From: Haloferula rosea
Lineage (GTDB): Bacteria; Verrucomicrobiota; Verrucomicrobiia; Verrucomicrobiales; Akkermansiaceae
Length of the DNA: 64,000 nucleotides
NCBI RefSeq assembly: GCF_016595525.1
Contig: NZ_JAENII010000012.1
Coordinates: 62,001-126,000 of the forward strand
Direction of reading: 5' to 3'
The notes beneath the pieces were generated by a model. It ran no database searches and was not told the DNA's origin. It saw nothing but the letters and a program-made list of their open reading frames with translations. This document shows, one piece after another, positions 32,265 through 45,874 of the stretch (position 1 is the stretch's first letter; every line of letters begins with the position of its first letter). The position numbers were made by a program, and so were the translations under genes.

Positions 32265-32786
32265 CTACTCCCCGGTCGAATCGCCCCCAGCAGCGGGCTT
32301 CGGAGCCGGTTTTCGCTCAGCCACCGCTTGCTTCAGGACCGCATGAAGCGGGGAATCCTCCTTCAGATTCTTGAGAACCACTTCCAGTTGATAGCCCTCG
32401 CCCCGCTCTGCCACTCGATACACACAGTCGACCACCGCCCGCAGCAGTTCTTCGGTCTGGTGCTTCTCGTCCACGGCCCCGTAGTCCAATGCGATCCGAT
32501 AGCTGTCATCCTCCTTGAGATCCGACAACACCTTGATTCCCGCCACACTCGCCATGTTGATGTCCTCCTGCTTGTGGAAGGATACCGCGGGAGGAATGTA
32601 GGGGATCCCGATGGCCTGAAAGGCGGACTCAGGCATCGCCATCCCGATCACGAAGGGGACCTCCACCACCAGGATCTCCGCCTGCCTTGTGTCGAGAGGC
32701 AGCGGAATCATCGCCAGCGCGTCCTCGCTGGCGGCAAGGGTTCGGATCAACAGGATGGAAACCAGCAGTCTTGGGAGCAACTTCAT
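32265..32786 (-). CDS. unknown secreted protein, 173 aa
   Basis: The start at 32786 yields a Sec signal (MKLLPRLLVSILLIRTLAAS). The mature part has an alternating hydrophobic stretch (ILVVEVPFVIGMAMPESAFQ) and a mixed alpha/beta middle. A Pro/Lys/Gly tail (KPAPKPAAGGDSTGE) closes it. I recognise no family. It lies between the ketosynthase pair (105 bp upstream) and the TonB receptor (159 bp downstream), all on the same strand. It could belong to either unit. It may be a periplasmic or surface-associated accessory of the receptor, but this is only contextual. Confidence 0.65.
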   Translation of the reverse strand: MKLLPRLLVSILLIRTLAASEDALAMIPLPLDTRQAEILVVEVPFVIGMAMPESAFQAIGIPYIPPAVSFHKQEDINMASVAGIKVLSDLKEDDSYRIALDYGAVDEKHQTEELLRAVVDCVYRVAERGEGYQLEVVLKNLKEDSPLHAVLKQAVAERKPAPKPAAGGDSTGE

Positions 32787-32891
32787 GACGGTTTGGAGCG
32801 AAGGGAGTTCGGCCGGGTTCGCCGGATTCACGGACGGACCCAAGCCACCTACACACCACTTCACGGCCGCCTCGGCAAGATCGCAGCGCGA

Positions 32892-33914
32892 TCAGGGAGC
32901 ATCGAAGACCGCGCCACCGACGGCTTCATTCCCGCCCACAGCCGTGACCACCGCGCGCTCCGCCCGCCCGGTCCTGAGCCATTCGAGAGCCGCGACGGTC
33001 TGGATGGCCGCCGAGGCACCCATCGCTTCACCCAGGAATTCCCGGGTTGAAATTCGCGGACCGTGCCAAGGCAGATCCTCGGCTTGATCGGTCCGGGCCA
33101 CCCCATTGCGACCATCGGCCCAAAGGGTCCTGCCGTTGTCGTCAGCTCCAAGATTCCGCCACAGCCGGGCCATGGCATCGACAGGACTTTCGACCTCCGC
33201 ATAGCTGACCGGATCAGGGATCGACATCAACCGCGGTCCATCGCCTTCACGACCCAGCACCACGGCAGCAGCGCCTTCGGAAGGCAAAAGACTAGAACTG
33301 TAGTAGCCCATCGCCTCCGCGCTGAGCCAGTCCATTTCTTCGGTGGCGACCACCACGCAGAGATCACAATCGCCTCGATCCAGCCATTCCGTGGCCAACT
33401 CAAGCCCCGCGAACCATTCGGCGCCATCCCCGACGATGGTATCATTCGGAGCGCTCGAACCCATCACCGCCGACAGGTGGCTCGAAGGAGCATTGTACAC
33501 GGTTTCAGGGAAGAGGATGGGACTGGCGACCGATGGATCCGTCAGCACCTCGCCGAAGAAGCGGTTGGAATAATTCACGCAGCCATTCATCAGCGTGCAG
33601 ATCACGGCAACGCGCAGATCACCATCCCTGGCCGCCTGATGGCGTTCCGCACCCATGGCTTCGAACACCGCCGCCGCCGCGTACTTACCAAGCGCGCTGG
33701 CCCGGCGCAGTCGCGGTGACTTCGGCAGCAGCGATCGGTCGGTCAGCTTCGGCACCTTGGCGACCGGAGTCGTGATGGAGGCCCCCTGATCGGTCGGGCG
33801 CTCCAGCACCGTTTGCTCCACCGCACGCTGCGCGTCGATGGTTTCCATCATCGCGGAGATCCCCCACCCGGCCGGCGTCACGGCTCCGGTTCCCAGCACG
33901 ACGATCCTGCTCAC
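32892..33914 (-). CDS. ketosynthase-like chain-length-factor-type protein without catalytic residues
   Basis: A 340-aa thiolase-fold protein starting at GTG 33914, which overlaps the upstream ketosynthase stop by 4 bp (GTGA). The fold is visible in MSRIVVLGTGAVTPAGWGIS, the LFPETVYNAPSSHLSAVMGS stretch, VVVATEEMDWLSAEA and SEGAAAVVLGREGDG. Aligned to its partner, the nucleophile Cys becomes Gly 164 (TIVGDGAEWF). The HGTGT loop is replaced by LWADGRNGV, and the last His becomes Glu 296 (FLGEAMG). It therefore cannot condense by itself and should pair with the active ketosynthase as KS-beta/CLF subunits do. Confidence 0.85.
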   Translation of the reverse strand: MSRIVVLGTGAVTPAGWGISAMMETIDAQRAVEQTVLERPTDQGASITTPVAKVPKLTDRSLLPKSPRLRRASALGKYAAAAVFEAMGAERHQAARDGDLRVAVICTLMNGCVNYSNRFFGEVLTDPSVASPILFPETVYNAPSSHLSAVMGSSAPNDTIVGDGAEWFAGLELATEWLDRGDCDLCVVVATEEMDWLSAEAMGYYSSSLLPSEGAAAVVLGREGDGPRLMSIPDPVSYAEVESPVDAMARLWRNLGADDNGRTLWADGRNGVARTDQAEDLPWHGPRISTREFLGEAMGASAAIQTVAALEWLRTGRAERAVVTAVGGNEAVGGAVFDAP

Positions 33915-35152
33915 GAGCGCCCCTCCTTCCCCATGATGAGTGTGGCATTCGCACCGCCGAAGCCGAAGGAGTTCGTCAAGGTGACCTCCACCTTCGCCTC
34001 CCGTGGTTCCTGCACCAGATCGAAGCTCACCGAGGGGTCGATCTCGCGCACGTTCAGGCTCGCCGGCAGCCATTGGCCGTCGAGAGCCATCAGGCAAATC
34101 ACCGCTTCGACCGCCCCCGCTCCGCCAAGCAAATGGCCGATCGCGGACTTGGTGGAGCTGACTCGGATCGAACGGCTGTCCCCCTGCGCCCAGCGGCGGA
34201 TGGCGGCAGCTTCCGCCACGTCGTTCAGAGGGGTGCCGGTGCCATGCGAATTGATGTAATCGATCTGTCCCGGCTCCAGCCCCGCCATCCGGGTGGCCGC
34301 CGTCATCGTGATCAAGGCCGCGTCTCCTTCCGGATTCGGCTGGGTCAGGTGGTGGATGTCGGTCGCCGCTCCGTAGCCCAGAACTTCCGCCATCACCTTG
34401 GCACCCCGCGCCTGGGCGGACTCCAGGCTTTCGACCACGACGAACCCGGCACCCTCGCCGATGGCGAGACCGTCCCGGGCGGCATCGAAAGGCCGTGGAA
34501 CTCCGCTCGGCGAGAGCGCCTGAAGGGAGTCGAACCCGGCGAAAACCAGCTGGGCCAGACCATCGTATCCTCCGGCCAACACCCGGTCCGCCTTGCCTTC
34601 CCGCACCATCTGGAAGGCATGCCCGATGGCATTGGCTCCCGACGCACAGGCATTCGAAATGATCCGCAGCGGGCCATAAACGCCGACCGACTTCATCAGC
34701 TGACTCATCTGGCGCTGCGGCTGGTAACACTCGATCCGCCTGAACTGACCTGCCCGATCCCCGCTTTTCGCCACCCGGTAGTAGTCCTCACCGATCGGCA
34801 TCGCCCCGGCCGACGTGCCGATGATCACCGGCATCGAACCGCGCACCCCGGCCGCCTCCAAAGCCTCCTCCGCAGCCACCAGCGCAAAGCGCGTGCCACG
34901 ATCCATCCGTTCCCATGCCTTCCTGCCGAGCCCAGCGAGCGTCGGCCGATCCGGCAGTTCGGCCTGACCGGCGGACCCCACCCGCTGCTTCGACACATCG
35001 AAAAGATCCACCTCGCGAAAAGCCGTGCGCCCTGCCCGGAAACCCGCGGCATTCTCCACCATGCCACAGCCCATCGACGTCACGATGCCCGACCCGCTGA
35101 TGACGACTGGACGCGGCTCCGGTGTGGGGGGGTGATCGGCTCGGTATGCCAT
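33911..35152 (-). CDS. beta-ketoacyl-ACP synthase, active (FabF/KS-alpha type)
   Basis: The ATG at 35152 gives 413 aa. The catalytic triad is complete: C169 in SNACASGANAIG, H303 in NSHGTGTPLND and H340 in SAIGHLLGGAG, with Lys 335 just before. FGFGGANATL closes the fold. Family knowledge: decarboxylative condensation of malonyl-ACP with an acyl-ACP primer. It is followed with a 4-bp overlap by a catalytically dead partner, the arrangement of type II polyketide and aryl-polyene systems. It is divergent, over 70 bp, from an AMP-ligase-like gene. No acyl carrier protein or ketoreductase is seen nearby. Confidence 0.94.
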   Translation of the reverse strand: MAYRADHPPTPEPRPVVISGSGIVTSMGCGMVENAAGFRAGRTAFREVDLFDVSKQRVGSAGQAELPDRPTLAGLGRKAWERMDRGTRFALVAAEEALEAAGVRGSMPVIIGTSAGAMPIGEDYYRVAKSGDRAGQFRRIECYQPQRQMSQLMKSVGVYGPLRIISNACASGANAIGHAFQMVREGKADRVLAGGYDGLAQLVFAGFDSLQALSPSGVPRPFDAARDGLAIGEGAGFVVVESLESAQARGAKVMAEVLGYGAATDIHHLTQPNPEGDAALITMTAATRMAGLEPGQIDYINSHGTGTPLNDVAEAAAIRRWAQGDSRSIRVSSTKSAIGHLLGGAGAVEAVICLMALDGQWLPASLNVREIDPSVSFDLVQEPREAKVEVTLTNSFGFGGANATLIMGKEGRS

Positions 35153-35222
35153 AATTCGCAATTCGGGCTGGTCGGGTGACCGCCTTCGCCGCTAGGCAAG
35201 CCCCCGCACCCTGATCTGTCAA

Positions 35223-36461
35223 ATGCTGCTTAACCGTTGGATCGAAACTCTCGCCACCCACCGTGACCGCCCGGCGATCCACGAAATGGGCGAGGCGAGG
35301 ACTTTCGCCGACATCGCCGCAGCACTCGATGCCCGCCCTGAAGCCACCGGCCCGGTCATCGCCCAGGGATCCGCCTTCGAGATCGCCGTGGCTTCGCTCC
35401 ACGGATGGAGGGACGGCCAGCCCGTGCTGCCGATCGAACAGCGCGACCACATCCCGCAGCTCCCCGCGCACCCCGGCCCCCAGATCGCCCACCTCAAGCG
35501 CGTCCCAAGCAACAACCAGCACCCCCGCTTCGCCCTTTTCACCGCCGCCCAGATCGCCGCCGATGCGGACCGATTGGTCCCCGCCATGGGACTCACCCCG
35601 GACATCCCGAATCTCGCCGCCATCTCGCTGGCCCACTCCTACGGCTACTCGAACGTCATCCTGCCCTTGCTGCTCCACGGCATCCCGATCCAGTGCGTCG
35701 ACGTCCCCTTCCCCGCCTCCATCGTGGCGGCCATGAAGCCCCACACCCGCGTCAACCTTCCCGCCGTGCCATCCATGTGGCGGGCCTGGCATCGCGCCGG
35801 GATCCTCAAGGACGCCCCCATCCACCTCGCCCTCACCGCCGGCGCCCCGCTCACATCGCAGCTCGAGCTGAGCGTCTGGGAAAACGACGGACTCAAGCTG
35901 CACAACTTCTACGGCGCTTCGGAATGTGGCGGCATTTCCTGGGACCCGACCGATGAGCCCCGCGAACTCGCCGACTCACTCGGCGTGCCGCTGCCCGGCG
36001 TCGATGCCCAGCTTGATCAGGCCGGTCATTTCGTGATCGGCAGCAGTTCCGTGGCCCAGGGATACCTCCCGGCCCATGAGACCGACCCGATCATCGACGG
36101 CCGCTTCCACACCGCCGATGGCGGCCACCTGCAATCCGGCCAACTCATCCTCGACGCCCGGGGCGGCGAGCAAATCAACGTCGCCGGTCGCAAGCTCGGA
36201 CCCGGCCGCATCGAGCTGGCCATCCAGAAAACCGGGCTGGCCGATCGGGCGCGGATTTTCGGAGTCCCCAGCAGTGATCCGGAACGCGTCGATGAGATCG
36301 CCGTGCTCCTCCCCGCCCGCACCGACATCGACACCCTTCGCGCCATGCTCGGAAAATCCCTGGCGGGCTGGCAACTGCCTCGTCACTGGTTCATCGCCGA
36401 TGATTCCTCGCTGTGGTCGAAGTCACGTGCCGACCTGCGCGATCAGTTCACGGATTCCTGA
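35223..36461 (+). CDS. ANL-superfamily acyl/aryl ligase-like protein with degenerate P-loop
   Basis: The 412-aa protein keeps several adenylate-forming motifs: YGASECGGISW (A5), the FHTADGGHL region (A7), INVAGRKLGP (A8) and a C-terminal Lys in WSKSRADL (A10 position). The A3 P-loop, normally TSGTTGxPR, is replaced by VPSNNQHPR around residues 94-102; downstream conserved residues (FALFTAAQIAADADRL) remain. It is shorter than typical ANL enzymes (about 500). It may activate a primer without a normal P-loop, or act non-enzymatically. Divergent from the ketosynthase pair; its 3' end overlaps the convergent TauE/SafE gene by 19 bp. Confidence 0.8.
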   Translation: MLLNRWIETLATHRDRPAIHEMGEARTFADIAAALDARPEATGPVIAQGSAFEIAVASLHGWRDGQPVLPIEQRDHIPQLPAHPGPQIAHLKRVPSNNQHPRFALFTAAQIAADADRLVPAMGLTPDIPNLAAISLAHSYGYSNVILPLLLHGIPIQCVDVPFPASIVAAMKPHTRVNLPAVPSMWRAWHRAGILKDAPIHLALTAGAPLTSQLELSVWENDGLKLHNFYGASECGGISWDPTDEPRELADSLGVPLPGVDAQLDQAGHFVIGSSSVAQGYLPAHETDPIIDGRFHTADGGHLQSGQLILDARGGEQINVAGRKLGPGRIELAIQKTGLADRARIFGVPSSDPERVDEIAVLLPARTDIDTLRAMLGKSLAGWQLPRHWFIADDSSLWSKSRADLRDQFTDS

Positions 36462-37468
36462 ATCGCCTCCTCCGGGTGGGCCGATGTCCAGCGCGTCTCG
36501 CGCAGCCGCCTGAGACGCCGGAACCACCAGGTCGCCATCGCGAAGACCACCACCAGCATCACCCCGCGCGGCAGGTCAATGGGTACGAGGATTGCCGTGG
36601 TTGCCACCTCCGCCACGATCAGCAGGAAGACCCCGATCAGGATGGCATCGCTCTTCACCTTCGAGGCCACCCACGCCCCGACCGGCGCGCCCACCGCCAC
36701 CACCGGCGCCGCCACCGCCCAGTATTCCCACACCACGCCGACCGGCTCCGGCTGGATCATGCGGAAGCCGAATCCCACCGCCGAGGTCGCCCCCATGATC
36801 ACCACCGAAGTCGGCACCGCGACGCGTTCATCGAGCCCGAAGCCCAGCGTCATCACCATGAAACACAGCATGTCAGCTCCCGAACCCAGCTGGGAGGCCG
36901 CCAAGCCACCGACCAAACCGGCTCCCGCAAATCTCAGCCCATCCGACTTCGTCCACCCGGAGATCCCACGCTCCGGCTCATGCCGACGTTTCCAGTGCGA
37001 GCGATAGAGCGTGATCGCAAACACCAGCAGCATCGAGGAAAAGACCAGCTTCGGCACGTTCGCCGGCAGACTCAGCCACTGCAGACCGATGACCACGCCG
37101 GGCATCGACCCGAGAATCGCAGCCCGGAACACCCGCATGTCGATCCGAATGCCACGGGTCAGAATGAACAAGGCCGCCATGTTCATGCCCACCGCTTGGA
37201 TCATCAGCCCGAAGAGCGCCGCATCCTCGGAAGGGATGGCCAGCGCCTTGGTGAACACCGGATAGGCCACCGCTCCGCCCCCGGCAGGCGTGGAACCGGC
37301 AACGAAGGAACCGAAGGCCATCGTCAGCGCCATCGGCCACCGCGTCTGATAGAGCGCCCAAGCGCCCCACAGCGTCATCGCGATGATCCACACCACCCAG
37401 ACCCCGGCCAGCGTCCACGGGAATGCCCGCGACTTCAACCCACCTGGACCTGACACCCCGGACGCCAT
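36443..37468 (-). CDS. TauE/SafE (TSUP) family membrane protein
   Basis: A 341-aa polytopic protein with about eight to nine hydrophobic helices and the glycine-rich repeats of the TSUP family (FGSFVAGSTPAGGGAVAYPV, GAGLVGGLAASQLGSGADML). Family knowledge: export or uptake of sulfite, sulfoacetate or other small organosulfur anions. Its start overlaps the FabZ-like stop by 1 bp (TAATG), so the two are translationally coupled. The C-terminal end overlaps the convergent ligase gene. The link of a sulfur anion carrier to an acyl-chain locus is unexplained. Confidence 0.88.
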   Translation of the reverse strand: MASGVSGPGGLKSRAFPWTLAGVWVVWIIAMTLWGAWALYQTRWPMALTMAFGSFVAGSTPAGGGAVAYPVFTKALAIPSEDAALFGLMIQAVGMNMAALFILTRGIRIDMRVFRAAILGSMPGVVIGLQWLSLPANVPKLVFSSMLLVFAITLYRSHWKRRHEPERGISGWTKSDGLRFAGAGLVGGLAASQLGSGADMLCFMVMTLGFGLDERVAVPTSVVIMGATSAVGFGFRMIQPEPVGVVWEYWAVAAPVVAVGAPVGAWVASKVKSDAILIGVFLLIVAEVATTAILVPIDLPRGVMLVVVFAMATWWFRRLRRLRETRWTSAHPEEAIQESVN

Positions 37469-37881
37469 TACTGACCACTGAGCATCACCTTCGCCGTCGC
37501 CAGCTTCCGGTCACCCACCGTGACTTCACCCGCGACCTGGATCATCGGACCCAATCGGCCTTCCACCGTGGCTGAGATCTCCAGCACCTCGCCCGGCACC
37601 GCAGCACCGAGGATCTTCGCACCACGAATGCCGGTCAGGAGGAGACCGTCCACCGCAGGCACCTCCGGATCGGACTGCGCCGCCACGCCACCAAGCTGGG
37701 CAATGGCTTCAACCAGAATCACCCCGGGCATCAGCGGGCGACCCGGGAAATGACCCGCAAGAAATCCCTCGTCACCGCGAATGGCGTAGGTTCCCCGGGC
37801 TGACTTGCCCGGATCGAGGTCGGTCAATTCATCAACGAACCGGAACTCCGGGCCATGGGGGAGCGAATCGAGTGCGGACAT
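37468..37881 (-). CDS. FabZ-like 3-hydroxyacyl-ACP dehydratase
   Basis: A single hot-dog domain of 137 aa. The family signature GHFPGRPLMPGVILVEAIAQ includes the catalytic His and the Glu on the long helix. GIRGAKILGAAVPGEVLEIS and VEGRLGPMIQVAGEVTVGDR complete the fold. The start at 37881 was chosen because longer frames add only unrelated basic residues. Housekeeping FabZ is usually about 150 aa beside lpx genes; this copy sits with a ketosynthase pair and ligase, so a dedicated role in that locus is likely (inference). First gene of a two-gene unit with the TauE/SafE protein. Confidence 0.9.
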   Translation of the reverse strand: MSALDSLPHGPEFRFVDELTDLDPGKSARGTYAIRGDEGFLAGHFPGRPLMPGVILVEAIAQLGGVAAQSDPEVPAVDGLLLTGIRGAKILGAAVPGEVLEISATVEGRLGPMIQVAGEVTVGDRKLATAKVMLSGQ

Positions 37882-38019
37882 GTGCGCATTCCTCGCACGC
37901 CCCTCCCCTTTGGCAAGCCGAAGAATGATCCGCCTCGTGGAAGGATGAACCACCCTGCCAGCCGAGCCTCCCCGGGAGTCACCGGGGAATCGACTGGAGG
38001 CGGTCCCGGCTCCATCCCG

Positions 38020-38667: not shown

Positions 38668-40032
38668 TCAGCCAAGGTCGGGCTCCCAACCCTGACGGTA
38701 GGTGCGCTTGATGAATTTCTGCGCTTCAGGCAACCCGCGCGCTTCCAGCTTCGCCGAGTCCCAGTTGATCTTCTTGCCCAGACGCACGGCGAGATTCCCC
38801 ACCAGAACCATTTCCGTCAACGGACCGGCGTGGTCCGTGAAGTTGGAGAGCGGCTTCTCTCCGTCGCCGCGGATCGCACGGCAGAGTTCCTGGGTCGGTC
38901 CACCACTCACACGGGCATACACCTTCGGCACCTTGCGCGCCTCTTCACGCAGCGACTCCGGATAGAGCTTGGGCGTGGCGCCACAGTAGGCATCCGGGCA
39001 GTAGATCACGCCCTTGGTGCCGACGAAGACCTGACCGAACTCGCGTCCGAGTTCGAGATCGTCCGGGATCCCCGGCGGACGGATGAACTTCTCGTCCTTG
39101 TTCGGATCGGCCACACCGTCCTGCCAGATGATCTTCACCGGGGCGCGACCCTTTTTCTCCGGGAAATCGAATACGATCGTCGTGCGCTTCGGCGCGATGT
39201 CCTCGTCGAACTCGGAAACCTGCGTGGCTTCCACCTCGAAGTCGCCGTGCAGGTCGAGCGCCCAGAAGGCCGAGTTGAAACTGTGACAGCCGATGTCGCC
39301 CAGCGCCCCGCAGCCATAGTCCCAGAAACCACGCCACGCGAAGGGGTGGATCTTCGGGCTGTAGGGACGGTCGGTCGCCACGCTGCCTTGCCAGACCTCC
39401 CAGTTGAGCGTCTCAGGAACGGGCTGCTTGGGAAATTCCAGACCCGGACCCTGCGGCCAGATCGGACGGTTCGTCCAGTAGTGGACCTCGGTCACCTCAC
39501 CGATCACGCCGGCTTCGATCCACTCGCGCAGCACCCGGGTGCCCGCATTCGTGGCGCCCTGGTTGCCCATCACCGTGAGCACATCGTGCTTCTTCGCGAG
39601 ATCCGCCAGAGCGCGGGTTTCCCACAGGGTATTGGCCAGCGGTTTCTGCACGAAGACCGGCTTGCCGGCCTGGATCGCCGCCACCGCGATCGGGAAGTGC
39701 ATGTGATCCGGCGTCGAGACGGTGACCACATCGATCTCATCCGCCATCTCCGAGAACATCTCCCGGTAGTCGAAGAACGTTTTGGCTTCCGGGAACTTCC
39801 CGAACGCACCGGCAGCCCGCTTGTGATCCACATCGCACAGCGCCACGATCTGATTGCTCGGGGCGATCTGGGAAATGTCACTGCCGCCCTTTCCGCCACA
39901 GCCGACCGCAGCCACGTTGAGTTTCTTCAGCGCCTTGTCCTGACCGAGCAGGATGTTCGGCGCGAAGGTGGCCCCGGCCATGACGGCGGAGGTTTTCAGG
40001 AATTGTCGACGATTTCCGGGATTCATGAGCAT
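38668..40032 (-). CDS. Tat-exported Gfo/Idh/MocA family oxidoreductase
   Basis: This 454-aa protein starts with a Tat signal (NPGNRRQFLKTSAVMAGATF); the second Met (40026) is an equally good start. The Rossmann motif VAAVGCGGKGGSDI is near residue 40, and the catalytic-lysine motif appears as FVQKPLA near 135 rather than EKPLA. The C-terminal domain includes HYWTNRPIWPQGPGLEFPKQ and GYGALGD-type DYGCGALGDIGCHSF. Family knowledge: NAD(P)-dependent sugar oxidation, possibly to 3-keto sugars that the co-transcribed DUF1080 protein (27 bp downstream) would process. It is divergent from the FAD oxidoreductase. Confidence 0.92.
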   Translation of the reverse strand: MLMNPGNRRQFLKTSAVMAGATFAPNILLGQDKALKKLNVAAVGCGGKGGSDISQIAPSNQIVALCDVDHKRAAGAFGKFPEAKTFFDYREMFSEMADEIDVVTVSTPDHMHFPIAVAAIQAGKPVFVQKPLANTLWETRALADLAKKHDVLTVMGNQGATNAGTRVLREWIEAGVIGEVTEVHYWTNRPIWPQGPGLEFPKQPVPETLNWEVWQGSVATDRPYSPKIHPFAWRGFWDYGCGALGDIGCHSFNSAFWALDLHGDFEVEATQVSEFDEDIAPKRTTIVFDFPEKKGRAPVKIIWQDGVADPNKDEKFIRPPGIPDDLELGREFGQVFVGTKGVIYCPDAYCGATPKLYPESLREEARKVPKVYARVSGGPTQELCRAIRGDGEKPLSNFTDHAGPLTEMVLVGNLAVRLGKKINWDSAKLEARGLPEAQKFIKRTYRQGWEPDLG

Positions 40033-40186: not shown

Positions 40187-42013
40187 ATGACTTTTCCCCG
40201 CATCCTCGTGACTCCTCTGCTCATCGGCGCAACCCAGGCCGCCAGCCTGCTGATCGAAGCCGAACAGTTCGCCAACAAGGGAGGCTGGAAGGTCGACACC
40301 CAATTCATCGAGTCGATGGGCTCACCCTACCTGATCGCTCATGGCATGGGCTCACCCGTGGCGGATGCGAGCACGACCGTGCAGGTCCCCGAAGACGGCG
40401 ATTACCGCATCTGGGTGCGCACGATCGACTGGTCCGAAAGACTGGATCGCGCGGGAGGCGCCGGACGCTTCACGCTGTCGGTCGACGGTCAGCCCCTCGG
40501 GGAAACCCTGGGCAAGGGCGCCCCGCAGTGGACATGGGAATCCGTGGGAACCACCCCGCTGAAGGCCGGATCACGCACCTTGAAGCTCCACGATCAAAGC
40601 GGCTTCAATGGTCGGGTCGACGCCATCCTGCTGAGCAACGACCCCGACTTCACCCCACCCGGTGTCGGCAGCCTCGCCGAGCGCACGAAGTGGTCCATCG
40701 ACGGCGTTCCCACCATGGCCGACGAGCTGGGAGACTTCGACCTGGTCGTGGTCGGCGGCGGCTACGGCGGCCTCGGCTCCGCCATCTCCGCAGCCCGCAT
40801 GGGAGCCAGAGTGGCCCTCATCCAGAACCGCAAGGTCCTCGGGGGCAACGGATCATCGGAAGTCCGGGTCTGGGCCAAAGGGAACTTCCCCCCGAACCAG
40901 TATCCGCTCGCCGACATCGTGAAGGAATTCACCGACTCCGCCAAAGCCTCACCCGCGCCCGCCGAACAATTCGAAGACGACAAGAAGACGGAAATCGTCC
41001 GCGCGGAAAAGAACATCACCCTGCTCCTCGGCCACCATGCCTATGGCGTGGAAAAGGAAGGCGACCAGATCAAGTCCATCAAGGTGCTCGACATCGAAGG
41101 AGGACGCGTCAGCCGCATTTCCGGCAAGCTCTTCGTCGATTGCACCGGCCATGGCTTCATCGGCGACTGGGCAGGTGCGGACAAGACCATGGCGGAAGGA
41201 GGACGCATGGGGATGAGCAACATGTGGATGTGGGAGAACACCGGCCAGACCGTTGCCTTCCCCGAAGAAGACTGGATGGTCCCCTTCAAGGAATCCGACT
41301 TCCCCTACCCGCGCCGGAACCACGCCGAGTGGTTCTGGGAAAGCGGCTACGATCGCCACCCCATCCTCGAACTCGAGCAAACCCGCGACTGGAACCTCGC
41401 CGTTTCCTACAGCGCGTGGAATGCCATCAAGAACCACGGCGCCCATGCCAAGCGCGACCCGCATGGCCACCAGCAGGCCAAGATGACCTGGCTCGCCTAC
41501 ATCGGCGGCACCCGGGAAACCCAGCAGCTCCTCGGTGACGTGATCCTCACCGGAGACGAAATCGTCGCCAAAGACGAATTTCCGGATGCCTGCGTCCGGG
41601 TCACCTGGTCCATCGACCTCCATGTCCCCCAGGAGCAGTACTTGAAGGCCACCCCCGACCGCCCGTTCATCTCCCGCGCCATCCATGGCAAGGGCGTGGA
41701 CCGCAACGTCGGCTACCCGATCCCCTACCGCTGCTTCTACTCACGGAACATCCCGAACCTGTTCATGGTCGGCCGAAACATCAGTGTCGACCGCCGCGCA
41801 CTCGGCACCACCCGCGTCATGAATACCATCGGCATGATGGGCGTCGTCGTCGGACGCGCCGCCGCGCTCGCCACCGTGCACGACTGCACACCGCGCGACA
41901 TCTACCAGAAACACCTCGACGAAGTGAAGCAGCTTTGGCTTCTCCCCGGGAAGCATCGCTTCGAATCGCTTGATGAGCTCCGAGACTCCCTCCAACCCTC
42001 AGCGGCCGAATAA
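40187..42013 (+). CDS. secreted FAD-dependent oxidoreductase with N-terminal carbohydrate-binding-like domain
   Basis: The 608-aa protein has a short Sec-type signal (MTFPRILVTPLLIGATQAAS). An N-terminal beta-rich domain (about 20-160) contains LIEAEQFANKGGW and VQVPEDGDYRIWVRTIDWSE, resembling CBM-like modules. From about 187 on comes the FAD fold: DLVVVGGGYGGLGSAISAAR with the dinucleotide motif near 190-195, GKLFVDCTGHGFIGDWAGAD, and the C-terminal MVGRNISVDRRALGTTRVMN. It belongs to the FAD_oxidored group common in Planctomycetota and Verrucomicrobiota. The substrate is unknown. Its 3' end overlaps the FMN-binding protein gene by 41 bp. Confidence 0.9.
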   Translation: MTFPRILVTPLLIGATQAASLLIEAEQFANKGGWKVDTQFIESMGSPYLIAHGMGSPVADASTTVQVPEDGDYRIWVRTIDWSERLDRAGGAGRFTLSVDGQPLGETLGKGAPQWTWESVGTTPLKAGSRTLKLHDQSGFNGRVDAILLSNDPDFTPPGVGSLAERTKWSIDGVPTMADELGDFDLVVVGGGYGGLGSAISAARMGARVALIQNRKVLGGNGSSEVRVWAKGNFPPNQYPLADIVKEFTDSAKASPAPAEQFEDDKKTEIVRAEKNITLLLGHHAYGVEKEGDQIKSIKVLDIEGGRVSRISGKLFVDCTGHGFIGDWAGADKTMAEGGRMGMSNMWMWENTGQTVAFPEEDWMVPFKESDFPYPRRNHAEWFWESGYDRHPILELEQTRDWNLAVSYSAWNAIKNHGAHAKRDPHGHQQAKMTWLAYIGGTRETQQLLGDVILTGDEIVAKDEFPDACVRVTWSIDLHVPQEQYLKATPDRPFISRAIHGKGVDRNVGYPIPYRCFYSRNIPNLFMVGRNISVDRRALGTTRVMNTIGMMGVVVGRAAALATVHDCTPRDIYQKHLDEVKQLWLLPGKHRFESLDELRDSLQPSAAE

Positions 42014-44494: not shown

Positions 44495-45874
44495 TCAGAG
44501 CTTGTAGAACTCCTCCCAGCCCTTCCGCGGAGCGGGATCGAGCAGAGCCTGGGCATCGGCATTGCCCACAAGGCTCTTGGTCTTGGGATCAAACTTCAGG
44601 TCACCACCCAGACGCTGGGCAATGATGCCGAGATTGAAGACCTGGGTCAGAGGCCCCGACACACGGAAGGGTGAGCGCGCCTCTTCCTCACCCTTGCAGG
44701 CGAGCAGGAAGTTCTCGTAGTGACTCGAAGGCTTCCCGGTCACTCGCGGCAGGGATCCTCGCATCTCCATGAACTTCTCCCGTGGCAGCACCTGCAGCAT
44801 CGCCGCGTGACTGCCGCCCTGGAAAGTCAGGTCCTTGCCGTAGATGATCTTGCCCGGACTCTTGAACGACACCTCGCCGAGCTCAGGATCCACTTCCGGG
44901 AAATTGCCGACACCGTCATACCAAGTCACATCACAGGCGGGCATCCGCTCGCGCTCAGGGAACTTGAAGCGGATCGTCGAAGCTTGGGGATACACCAGCG
45001 GATTCGCCCCATCCCGCTTGACCGCCTCGATCGCCGTCGGCAGACCCAGCTTCAGGAAACGGTGGGCCGTGTCCAGAATGTGCGGACCCCAGTCGCCAAA
45101 GGCTCCACAGCCGTAGTCGAACCAGCTGCGCCACTCACACGGGTGCAGCTTCTTGCTGAAAGGGTGCTCCGGGGCCGGACCAGTCCACACCGGCCAGTTC
45201 ATGCCCTTTGGCAAAGGCTCGCTTGGATACTCCTTCACCGAAGCTCCCCAGCCGTGCCAGCGGCGGGGACTGTTCATGTAAGCATCGATCTTCGTGACAT
45301 CCTTGACGATCCCCGCCTTCGTCCAGGCGTCGAACTGGAAGTAATTCCCTCCCGAATGCCCTTGGTTACCCATCTGGGTCACCACACCACTCTTGTCCGC
45401 CAGCGCAATGAGGCGCTCGCACTGACCGAAGGTGTGGGCCAGCGGTTTCTCCACATAGACATGCTTGCCGAGCGACATCGCCAGCATCGTCATGCAGAAG
45501 TGCGCATGGTCCGGTGTGCCGATGAGCACCGCATCGATATCGTCCGCCATCTCGTCGAACATCTTGCGGAAATCCGTGAAGCGCTTCGCCTTCGGATGCG
45601 CCTTCTGGTTCGCCTGCGTGTGCTTGCCCTCAAGGTCCACATCACACAGCGCGACCACCTCACAATGCCCCGAGTTCACCATGTTCTTCAGCACCGCACC
45701 TCCCCGGTTGCCAATGCCGATGGCGGCGAGATTCACCTTCTCATTCGCCGATACCGTGGCTGCCCGGCTTCGCGTCCCCATGACCAGAGAGGCTGGAAGA
45801 ATCGTGAACGCCCCGAACGCGGCTGAGCCCTTGAGGAAGTCGCGACGACTGGAAGATGTGAAAGGTTTCTTCAT
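44495..45874 (-). CDS. Tat-exported Gfo/Idh/MocA family oxidoreductase
   Basis: The ATG at 45874 gives 459 aa with a Tat signal (FTSSSRRDFLKGSAAFGAFT). The Rossmann motif LAAIGIGNRGGAVLKNMV lies near residue 51, the EKP motif (VYVEKPLAHTFG) near 140. A second His motif (MGNQGHSGGNYFQFD) lies near 170. The C-terminal domain shares WFDYGCGAFGDWGPHILD with verrucomicrobial homologues. It is a stand-alone gene, convergent with apbE (66 bp between the stops) and divergent from nifJ. Function likely periplasmic sugar or polyol oxidation. Confidence 0.92.
   Translation of the reverse strand: MKKPFTSSSRRDFLKGSAAFGAFTILPASLVMGTRSRAATVSANEKVNLAAIGIGNRGGAVLKNMVNSGHCEVVALCDVDLEGKHTQANQKAHPKAKRFTDFRKMFDEMADDIDAVLIGTPDHAHFCMTMLAMSLGKHVYVEKPLAHTFGQCERLIALADKSGVVTQMGNQGHSGGNYFQFDAWTKAGIVKDVTKIDAYMNSPRRWHGWGASVKEYPSEPLPKGMNWPVWTGPAPEHPFSKKLHPCEWRSWFDYGCGAFGDWGPHILDTAHRFLKLGLPTAIEAVKRDGANPLVYPQASTIRFKFPERERMPACDVTWYDGVGNFPEVDPELGEVSFKSPGKIIYGKDLTFQGGSHAAMLQVLPREKFMEMRGSLPRVTGKPSSHYENFLLACKGEEEARSPFRVSGPLTQVFNLGIIAQRLGGDLKFDPKTKSLVGNADAQALLDPAPRKGWEEFYKL

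Follow-up and report, generated by a model that had tools for sequence, protein, structure and literature searches.

Gene content of the locus

The window, by which we denote the whole stretch of 64,000 nucleotides of Haloferula rosea DNA that was analysed, carries a pair of ketosynthase (KS) genes, followed by genes for an AMP-ligase-like protein, a membrane protein and a dehydratase (Table 1). The dehydratase is recognized by the Pfam FabA profile (E 2.5e-17) and by the NCBIfam FabZ model with 86.5 bits, which is below the cut-off of 113 bits, and it is found near Lig or the KS genes in some relatives. Its neighbour matches Pfam TauE (E 2e-23), and the coupling of these two genes, as originally predicted, holds at the locus. 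As a member of the gene set, however, the TauE gene was rejected: in the neighbourhood set, which comprises 34 loci from the window and its nearest relatives, it adjoins FabZ in only 4, and it is probably a bystander.

Table 1 Features of the ketosynthase locus (positions in the window)
Feature	Position	Strand	Description
KS-beta	32892..33914	-	340 aa; catalytically dead, chain-length-factor-like ketosynthase partner (by sequence)
KS-alpha	33911..35152	-	Active-type ketosynthase (by sequence); ATG start, TTG at 35161 likewise open
Lig	35223..36461	+	AMP-ligase fold, P-loop destroyed, no C-terminal (A10) GK motif; probable pseudo-ligase
TauE/SafE-family membrane protein	36443..37468	-	One-base overlap with FabZ; probably outside the pathway
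FabZ-like	37468..37881	-	3-hydroxyacyl-ACP dehydratase; GTG at 37953 likewise open

Two further genes of the window were considered and set aside. The 199-aa gene located 3′ of KS-beta (32265-32864) matches no Pfam or NCBIfam family at E values up to 1 and has no relative among the fetched loci searched. The FAD oxidoreductase at 40187-42013 displays just ~22-29% identity to the FAD oxidoreductase of the pathway discussed below, for which a 61% match sits on contig C2 of the same genome.

An active-type ketosynthase with a dead partner

Judged by the residues they carry, KS-alpha is a complete ketosynthase of the active type and KS-beta is a dead, chain-length-factor-like partner. Both KS halves of KS-alpha are matched in Pfam, and the predicted catalytic triad is in place (C172/H306/H343 counted from the TTG start, corresponding to C169/H303/H340 from the ATG three codons later). 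Together with the catalytic Lys, these residues are invariant across all 108 aligned relatives, a set in which, as in the 113 sequences aligned for KS-beta, some genes are counted twice, having been fetched by two routes. In KS-beta, the Pfam ketoacyl-synt match is confined to residues 19-211 (E 1e-6). The exchanges of the catalytic Cys for Gly164 and of the last His for Glu296 proved correct, and Gly also occupies the position of the first His. Among the 113 aligned relatives, none has Cys at the Cys position and none has His at the first-His position, where 6 show a gap, and the last His is retained in 4. The HGTGT loop is indeed missing as a motif, but it has been replaced rather than deleted, with GRNGV at the aligned place.

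As predicted, KS-beta starts at the GTG of a GTGA overlap with the KS-alpha stop codon. A four-base overlap of this kind is seen in 73 of 112 KS-pair loci and an overlap of either four bases or one in 75, and in 10 of the 112 both genes form one continuous frame, with fusions in several genera; the 112 loci include some of the same genes fetched twice.

Ishigamide is a polyene of actinobacterial origin. The structure model of KS-beta (pLDDT 90) can be aligned from residue 1 to residue 340 with whole ketosynthases, and its top three Foldseek matches all fall on chain B of the ishigamide KS/CLF (PDB 6KXD-6KXF), which we take to be the chain length factor (CLF) because chain A is the match of KS-alpha. 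The sequence identity is 19%, and the pathway is a different one. When the model was compared by VIA-align, KS/CLF and FabF folds were tied (Z 35-37), and hence the fold alone is no proof of a CLF. The best PDB sequence match of KS-beta is the KS pair 9S5H, for which a literature search gave no paper.

Loss of the ATP site in Lig

The sequence motifs of AMP-ligases carry names such as A5, A8 and A10, and a P-loop takes part in their function. Lig matches the Pfam AMP-binding profile (E 4e-14) with residues 122-282, corresponding to the second half of the profile. At the place of the P-loop, whose loss had been proposed, the alignment displays VPSNNQHPR versus TSG(T/S)TG in some relatives, and alignments with intact and degraded relatives reveal no A10 GK motif in the window's copy, which is more degraded than any other copy in the alignment. 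Lig thus lacks both the P-loop and the A10 lysine of a competent acyl-adenylate-forming ligase. A second ligase, located with ACP2 in the same genome, is intact, and an FAD oxidoreductase lies near it in some genomes. Among the genomes scored, Lig is devoid of a P-loop in 19 of 20 that possess a second intact ligase, compared with 0 of 5 that do not.

The loss of both ATP-site elements might mean that Lig is simply a decaying pseudogene that retains no role. In keeping with this view, Lig diverges faster than KS-alpha (57-58% versus 79% identity in the nearest relatives), and it was not seen in 5 of the 17 KS-beta-bearing genomes of the genus, where the fetched stretches all run up to, or almost up to, the end of a contig. 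Additional flank beside KS-alpha contains the whole Lig in G010, G015 and G008, but it did not turn up in the other stretches. We nevertheless consider the pseudogene explanation unlikely, as all 12 copies found in the genus have an open frame of ~410 aa and, where measured, share 54-58% identity with that of the window, 31 columns are invariant over 21 family members, and the degraded P-loop is itself conserved in a clade-specific pattern of its own, for example TPGASGIPRGI. Lig is described here as a probable pseudo-ligase.

Dispersed counterparts and co-occurrence

The ACP and KR, which had been expected to be supplied from elsewhere, have counterparts in the genome of H. rosea: a KR-ACP-flippase group, a halogenase-type flavoenzyme gene, a glycosyltransferase-methyltransferase-deacetylase-acyltransferase group and an MMPL exporter gene each occupy a separate place, as does the second ligase with ACP2, and pathway-type genes are found at up to seven places. 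The aryl-polyene-type set was found in this genome except for LolA, which stands beside MMPL in G001, G002, G003, G010 and G014 and was not detected in the MMPL neighbourhood examined here. In the single-contig genome G002, KS-beta is separated by 219 kb from the ACP gene and by a linear distance of 3.0 Mb from the acyltransferase gene. Across the 34 genomes with KS-beta, it lies within 15 kb of the ACP gene in 5 and within 15 kb of the acyltransferase gene in 2.

Searching the relatives for the same gene set together with ACP and KR, as the original prediction had suggested, retrieved one stretch of ~18-23 kb in each of two genomes of the same family, G028 and G031. These clusters hold the same gene kinds, namely KS, KR, DH, ACP, ligase, glycosyltransferase/acyltransferase, LolA and an MMPL-type exporter. 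The LolA protein of G028 has flexirubin LolA2 as its best NCBIfam match with 47 bits against a cut-off of 125, next to 44.5 bits for the general lolA model. For the KR, general FabG models score higher (252 bits) than flexirubin FlxB (219.7 bits), which is among the top matches but below its cut-off of 340 bits.

KS-beta (E≤1e-5), the special ACP (E≤1e-12) and the acyltransferase (E≤1e-10) are present in the identical 34 of 57 related genomes, that of H. rosea included, and were not found in the other 23. Each of the 57 genomes thus has either all three or none of them (Fisher p 2e-16, uncorrected for kinship), with most of the genomes being drafts and the presence/absence counts uncorrected for phylogeny. 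Scattering of the genes in other genomes had been named as an observation that would speak against a common pathway, and taken literally the genes are scattered, yet their joint presence or absence argues for a pathway all the same. Among the 16 genomes of the wider searches, G004 is the sole member of the genus without KS-beta. It alone gives no match to the halogenase-type enzyme, the acyltransferase, MMPL or the second ligase, and its KR and ACP matches are only weaker, ordinary ones; the other 15 of 15 possess all of them.

PF00221, the family covering the ammonia-lyases used for starters, gives matches in 5 of 14 control genomes but in none of the 57. The tyrosine ammonia-lyase that would provide the 4-coumarate starter of a flexirubin proper was accordingly not found in this set, and because no aromatic ammonia-lyase occurs in the 57 genomes, the aryl head group is only putative.

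Relation to aryl polyene systems

The gene kinds match those of published envelope pigments. The flexirubin cluster flxA-flxY of Chitinophaga pinensis is described as encoding, among others, several KS, KR, DH, a ligase and a 'ligase-like' protein, as well as a PS-deacetylase, a phospholipid acyltransferase, LolA, a glycosyltransferase and an exporter, with the resorcinol genes standing apart from the polyene genes (PMC3992019). The same kinds are found here; unlike in these Bacteroidota clusters, the ammonia-lyase is lacking and the genes are far more dispersed. For the arc genes of Azoarcus (xanthomonadin/arcuflavin), located at two places (azo3910-3921 and azo0253-0264), the description names a halogenase, a methyltransferase, PS-deacetylase, exporter, LolA, acyltransferase, DH, AMP-ligase, ACP, glycosyltransferase, KR and KS, and a protein with an N-terminal KS domain only (PMC3949708). 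Again the kinds agree with ours, whereas our genes occupy more places and KS-beta is full-length. Aryl polyene (APE) clusters are reported to pair an active KS with a chain length factor that resembles a KS, and to contain in addition two ACPs, ligase, KR, DH, a LolA-like protein and an RND transporter (PMC8358021, PMC8253772). APE gene kinds, the active KS (ApeO) with its chain length factor (ApeC) included, are shared here. ApeC, however, is described as one thiolase fold of about half size (PMC8358021), in contrast to KS-beta with its 340 aa, which models across the KS fold. The proposed affinity of an active-type KS-alpha and inactive KS-beta to aryl polyene and type II polyketide systems is supported by these comparisons.

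A probable dispersed pathway

The locus is probably the chain-elongation module of a dispersed aryl-polyene-type (flexirubin/xanthomonadin-like) type II polyketide pathway. The compact, minimal route to a short acyl product that was first envisaged is not supported, and the locus as a self-sufficient pathway is rejected because the remaining genes have co-occurring counterparts elsewhere in the genome; it appears to be a single module within a more extensive, scattered envelope-pigment-type pathway. In the heterodimer that KS-alpha and KS-beta would form, condensation of malonyl units on the ACP belonging to the pathway would be the task of KS-alpha, and KS-beta would give the pocket its shape and determine the chain length. 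The KR from the other locus would reduce and this FabZ would dehydrate each unit, the double bond remaining in place to yield a polyene. The starter may be activated by the second ligase, and the flavin halogenase-type enzyme and methyltransferase may decorate the putatively coloured product. Glycosyltransferase, LpxL-like acyltransferase, deacetylase, flippase-like protein and MMPL exporter, with LolA in relatives, would mount it on the envelope. Lig may once have been the starter ligase itself; with the second ligase taking over adenylation, it would have been retained as a non-adenylating partner, comparable to the 'ligase-like' FlxW.

We are evenly divided over the wider proposal that in Verrucomicrobiales a complete aryl-polyene-type pathway has been split into at least five unlinked modules with its function kept, and that Lig has become a conserved non-adenylating pseudo-enzyme, serving either as a scaffold or as an ATP-independent acyl transferase. 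Retention of function would follow from the modules still being gained and lost as a set.

Alternatively, the KS pair and its partners might make a specialised membrane fatty acid or a ladderane-like lipid instead of an aryl polyene pigment. Both product types would use FAS-like type II enzymes, ladderane-type clusters are among those reported in Verrucomicrobia (PMC8692599), a radical SAM family is represented in 14 of the 80 named loci (one member Pfam-checked), and the missing ammonia-lyase would agree with such a lipid. However, this family is unlabelled in the genus loci among the 80, no enoyl reductase is annotated among the conserved neighbour families, and the halogenase-type flavoenzyme, LolA, MMPL, GT2, acyltransferase and PS-deacetylase correspond to those of published aryl polyene clusters as far as these are described, all of which renders the lipid improbable. 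A role of KS-beta in housekeeping fatty acid synthesis, be it as a FabF isoform with an active or regulatory function or as a paralogue in decay, as FabF models being the best NCBIfam matches of both KS proteins (KS-alpha 343 bits, below the fabF cut-off of 494) and the tied folds might suggest, can practically be dismissed, since a separate FabF-like KS is encoded on contig C67, KS-beta has 37 invariant columns in 24 sequences despite its lost Cys, and its absence from the searches in 23 of 57 genomes shows that it is not housekeeping.

If the dispersed aryl-polyene-type pathway is real, cluster-finding software would see only fragments of such split pathways, and cross-genome co-occurrence can recover what cluster finders would cut off. 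A pathway clustered elsewhere appears dispersed in most genomes of the order that have it, offering a natural test of why clusters exist, be it transfer, regulation or loss as a unit. A literature search on Luteolibacter pigments and polyenes gave nothing on this pathway among the matches listed. Since the decay of Lig is paired with a second ligase, the emergence of a pseudo-enzyme becomes open to direct testing. The natural KS/CLF fusions, in turn, provide a single-chain handle on the predicted heterodimer; a fusion protein modelled from 8 sequences only reached a pTM of 0.78 and a pLDDT of 70.

A conserved ketosynthase pair with one inactive partner

The pair formed by the active-type ketosynthase KS-alpha and its catalytically dead, chain-length-factor-like partner KS-beta is real and conserved. 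The original prediction had described an active ketosynthase overlapping an inactive one by GTGA, beside a divergent ligase-like gene and a dehydratase coupled to a TauE/SafE protein, and this observation of the locus was right, as judged by the gene coordinates, the GTGA overlap and the Pfam and NCBIfam matches. NCBIfam puts KS-alpha near FabF, but its 343 bits fall short of that model's 494-bit cut-off, and KS-beta gives a weak Pfam match (1e-6) over residues 19-211 only. Only the window and its closest relatives were seen to have the TauE/SafE protein, an odd partner for a dehydratase, overlapping or beside FabZ.

Genes of the locus, dispersed modules of the own genome (G000; C, contig; L, fetched locus) and further genes
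Feature	Position	Strand	Remark
FabZ	37881-37468	minus	overlaps TauE by one base
TauE (TauE/SafE protein)	37468-36443	minus	one-base overlap with FabZ
Lig (ligase-like gene)	35223-36461	plus, opposite to FabZ/TauE	Pfam AMP-binding, second half only
KS-alpha	35152-33911	minus	overlaps KS-beta by GTGA
KS-beta	33914-32892	minus	GTGA overlap with KS-alpha
KR-ACP-flippase, together	G000:C68		
Halogenase-type enzyme	G000:C9		
GT2-methyltransferase-PS-deacetylase-acyltransferase	G000:C33		gene order as in clustered form
MMPL	G000:C11		
Second ligase	G000:C2:5090-7984		behind ACP2-like gene
ACP2-FAD oxidoreductase	G000:C2		~66 kb from second ligase
Hybrid PKS-NRPS frame	G000:C3:8070-18611 (L069:71-10612)	minus	3513 aa
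Ketosynthase-like protein	G000:C55:223063-224145 (L071:9064-10146)	minus	360 aa
Oxidoreductase pair	44513-45850 and 38668-40032		35% identical

Of the 18 genus members, 17 have KS-beta, and over all 57 genomes, the own one included, the count is 34; second search rows for G038 and G016 were an additional piece of the contig already matched and a weak separate match, respectively. A scan of genome contigs confirmed 301 relatives. The best 80 of these, which include Luteolibacter, Haloferula, Verrucomicrobium and Limisphaerales, all bear names of Verrucomicrobiota members except for one plain 'bacterium'. Cys, both His and Lys are retained in all 108 aligned KS-alpha sequences; in 113 aligned KS-beta sequences no Cys occupies the Cys position and no His the first-His position, and the last His remains in four. 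At the 112 loci with both genes (two further loci lack one of them), the KS-beta start overlaps the KS-alpha stop by four bases in 73 cases, by one base in 2 and otherwise in 4, a gap separates the genes in 23 and a single continuous frame joins them in 10; in these residue and overlap counts some genes, fetched by two routes, figure twice.

Fusions of the two genes occur in at least three genera. The fused frames of 764-835 aa at L054, L057, L064, L065, L066, L175, L179 and L184 are natural single-chain KS/CLF proteins, and the model of one fused protein, built from 8 sequences only, reached a pTM of 0.78 and a pLDDT of 70. For the model of the window KS-beta (pLDDT 90), the three best Foldseek matches are all chain B of the ishigamide KS/CLF; with a second structure aligner KS/CLF and FabF folds tie, and the best PDB match by sequence profile is 9s5h chain C.

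Clustered and dispersed gene sets

In two members of the same family, the KS pair lies inside a larger stretch, of about 23 kb in G028 and with about 18 kb seen in G031 (whose contig recurs as L222). It encodes a KR, an ACP, a flippase-like LPG_synthase_TM protein, LolA and an MMPL exporter, two halogenase-type flavoenzymes, an intact AMP-ligase, an FAD oxidoreductase with a second ACP, a GT2, a methyltransferase, a PS-deacetylase, an LpxL-like acyltransferase, FabZ and the ligase-like protein Lig. Large parts of it are also found in the named loci L212, L180 and L174. By BLAST families, KS-alpha occurs in 73 of the 80 named loci plus 4 fusions, ACP in 40, KR in 37, a Lig-type ligase in 35, a halogenase-type enzyme in 24, FabZ and a radical SAM family in 14 each and GT2 in 12, all lower bounds, as many contigs are short; Pfam was run on representatives only. 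The radical SAM family (representative 347 aa, CxxxCxxC) lies mostly upstream of KS-alpha, at L166, L174, L196, L199, L207, L209, L215-L218 and others, and some of these contigs are named Limisphaerales or Pedosphaera.

In the own genome, itself a draft, about 60 kb separate KS-beta from the closer contig end, and the dispersed modules listed in the table sit on several other contigs; the KR-ACP-flippase trio is common to all 13 second loci fetched. Because many genomes are drafts, separate contigs alone are no proof of distance. In the single-contig genome G002 the modules found are ~70 kb to 3 Mb (linear) away from KS-beta; in G010, also a single contig, the distances are ~84 kb to 2.5 Mb, and the halogenase-type and MMPL genes adjoin each other. 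KS-beta is within 15 kb of the ACP in 5 of 34 genomes and of the acyltransferase in 2.

Despite this dispersal, KS-beta (E<=1e-5), the special ACP encoded with KR and the flippase-like protein (E<=1e-12) and the acyltransferase (E<=1e-10) occur together in 34 of the 57 genomes and are all missing from the remaining 23 (Fisher p 2e-16, with no correction for kinship). Discordant close relatives are informative here: G004 differs from the other 17 members of its genus, and the congeners G039 and G042 differ from each other. G004 alone among 16 genomes in wider searches gave no match to the halogenase-type enzyme, acyltransferase, MMPL or second ligase, and its KR and ACP matches are weaker (1e-56 and 2e-6, where each of the 15 others reaches 8e-113 and 7e-33 or better).

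Decay of the ligase-like protein

Lig retains TSG(T/S)TG and a C-terminal GK motif in some relatives from other families; both are missing in the genus copies, and the window copy (VPSNNQHPR) is the most degraded. Among 39 copies in named loci, both motifs are absent from 26 and present in 9, with the P-loop alone in 3 and the lysine motif alone in 1, as scored by matching motif patterns to trimmed sequences, with L190 a borderline case and with some loci shared with the set of 34 described below. Judged by these motifs, loss of the P-loop and of the lysine motif go together.

The decay also tracks the second ligase, the AMP-ligase found with ACP2, whose own-genome copy is intact (FSSGTTGTSKG, ASGK). 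In the first scoring set, in which 23 of 34 loci yielded a scorable Lig, the protein is degraded in 17 of 18 genomes with the second ligase, G037 being the exception, and intact in all 5 without it (p 2e-4, uncorrected); copies from G010 and G015, added later, are degraded as well, giving 19 of 20. The second ligase may thus have taken over starter activation, with Lig retained for some other role. The main alternative is that Lig is a fading pseudogene; of the 17 genus genomes that have KS-beta, 12 yielded a Lig and the stretches fetched from the other 5 contained none.

Proposed pathway and relation to known systems

The sequences show the gene content, the inactive partner, the dispersal, the co-occurrence and the ligase decay. 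Beyond that, we propose that KS-alpha and KS-beta would extend an acyl starter carried by the special ACP, that KR and FabZ would act in each elongation round and that the envelope genes may anchor and export the product. The annotated neighbours include no enoyl reductase, which suggests a polyene product. An aromatic ammonia-lyase was found in none of the 57 genomes, so the pathway is not flexirubin biosynthesis in its known form.

The clustered set resembles the published flexirubin genes (PMC3992019), the arcuflavin/xanthomonadin genes (PMC3949708) and the APE gene table (PMC8253772). Arylpolyene clusters have been predicted in Verrucomicrobiota (PMC8692599) and for Oceaniferula flavus, which is yellow (PMC9865893), and the reports on Azoarcus (PMC3949708) and Chitinophaga (PMC3992019) already place such pathways in two or so separate locations. 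As a weak negative, none of the titles and abstract openings of the papers listed describes KS-CLF fusions, dispersal this far or a pathway of this type with a P-loop-less ligase.

Further genes in the own genome

The contig that carries the window also encodes, ~76 kb away from the KS pair, a hybrid PKS-NRPS frame whose domains include KS, AT, aminotransferase, condensation, adenylation and thioesterase. Elsewhere in the genome, a further divergent ketosynthase-like protein matches mainly the N-terminal KS model. The window also encodes two related oxidoreductases, one of them beside a 3-keto-disaccharide hydrolase-family gene.
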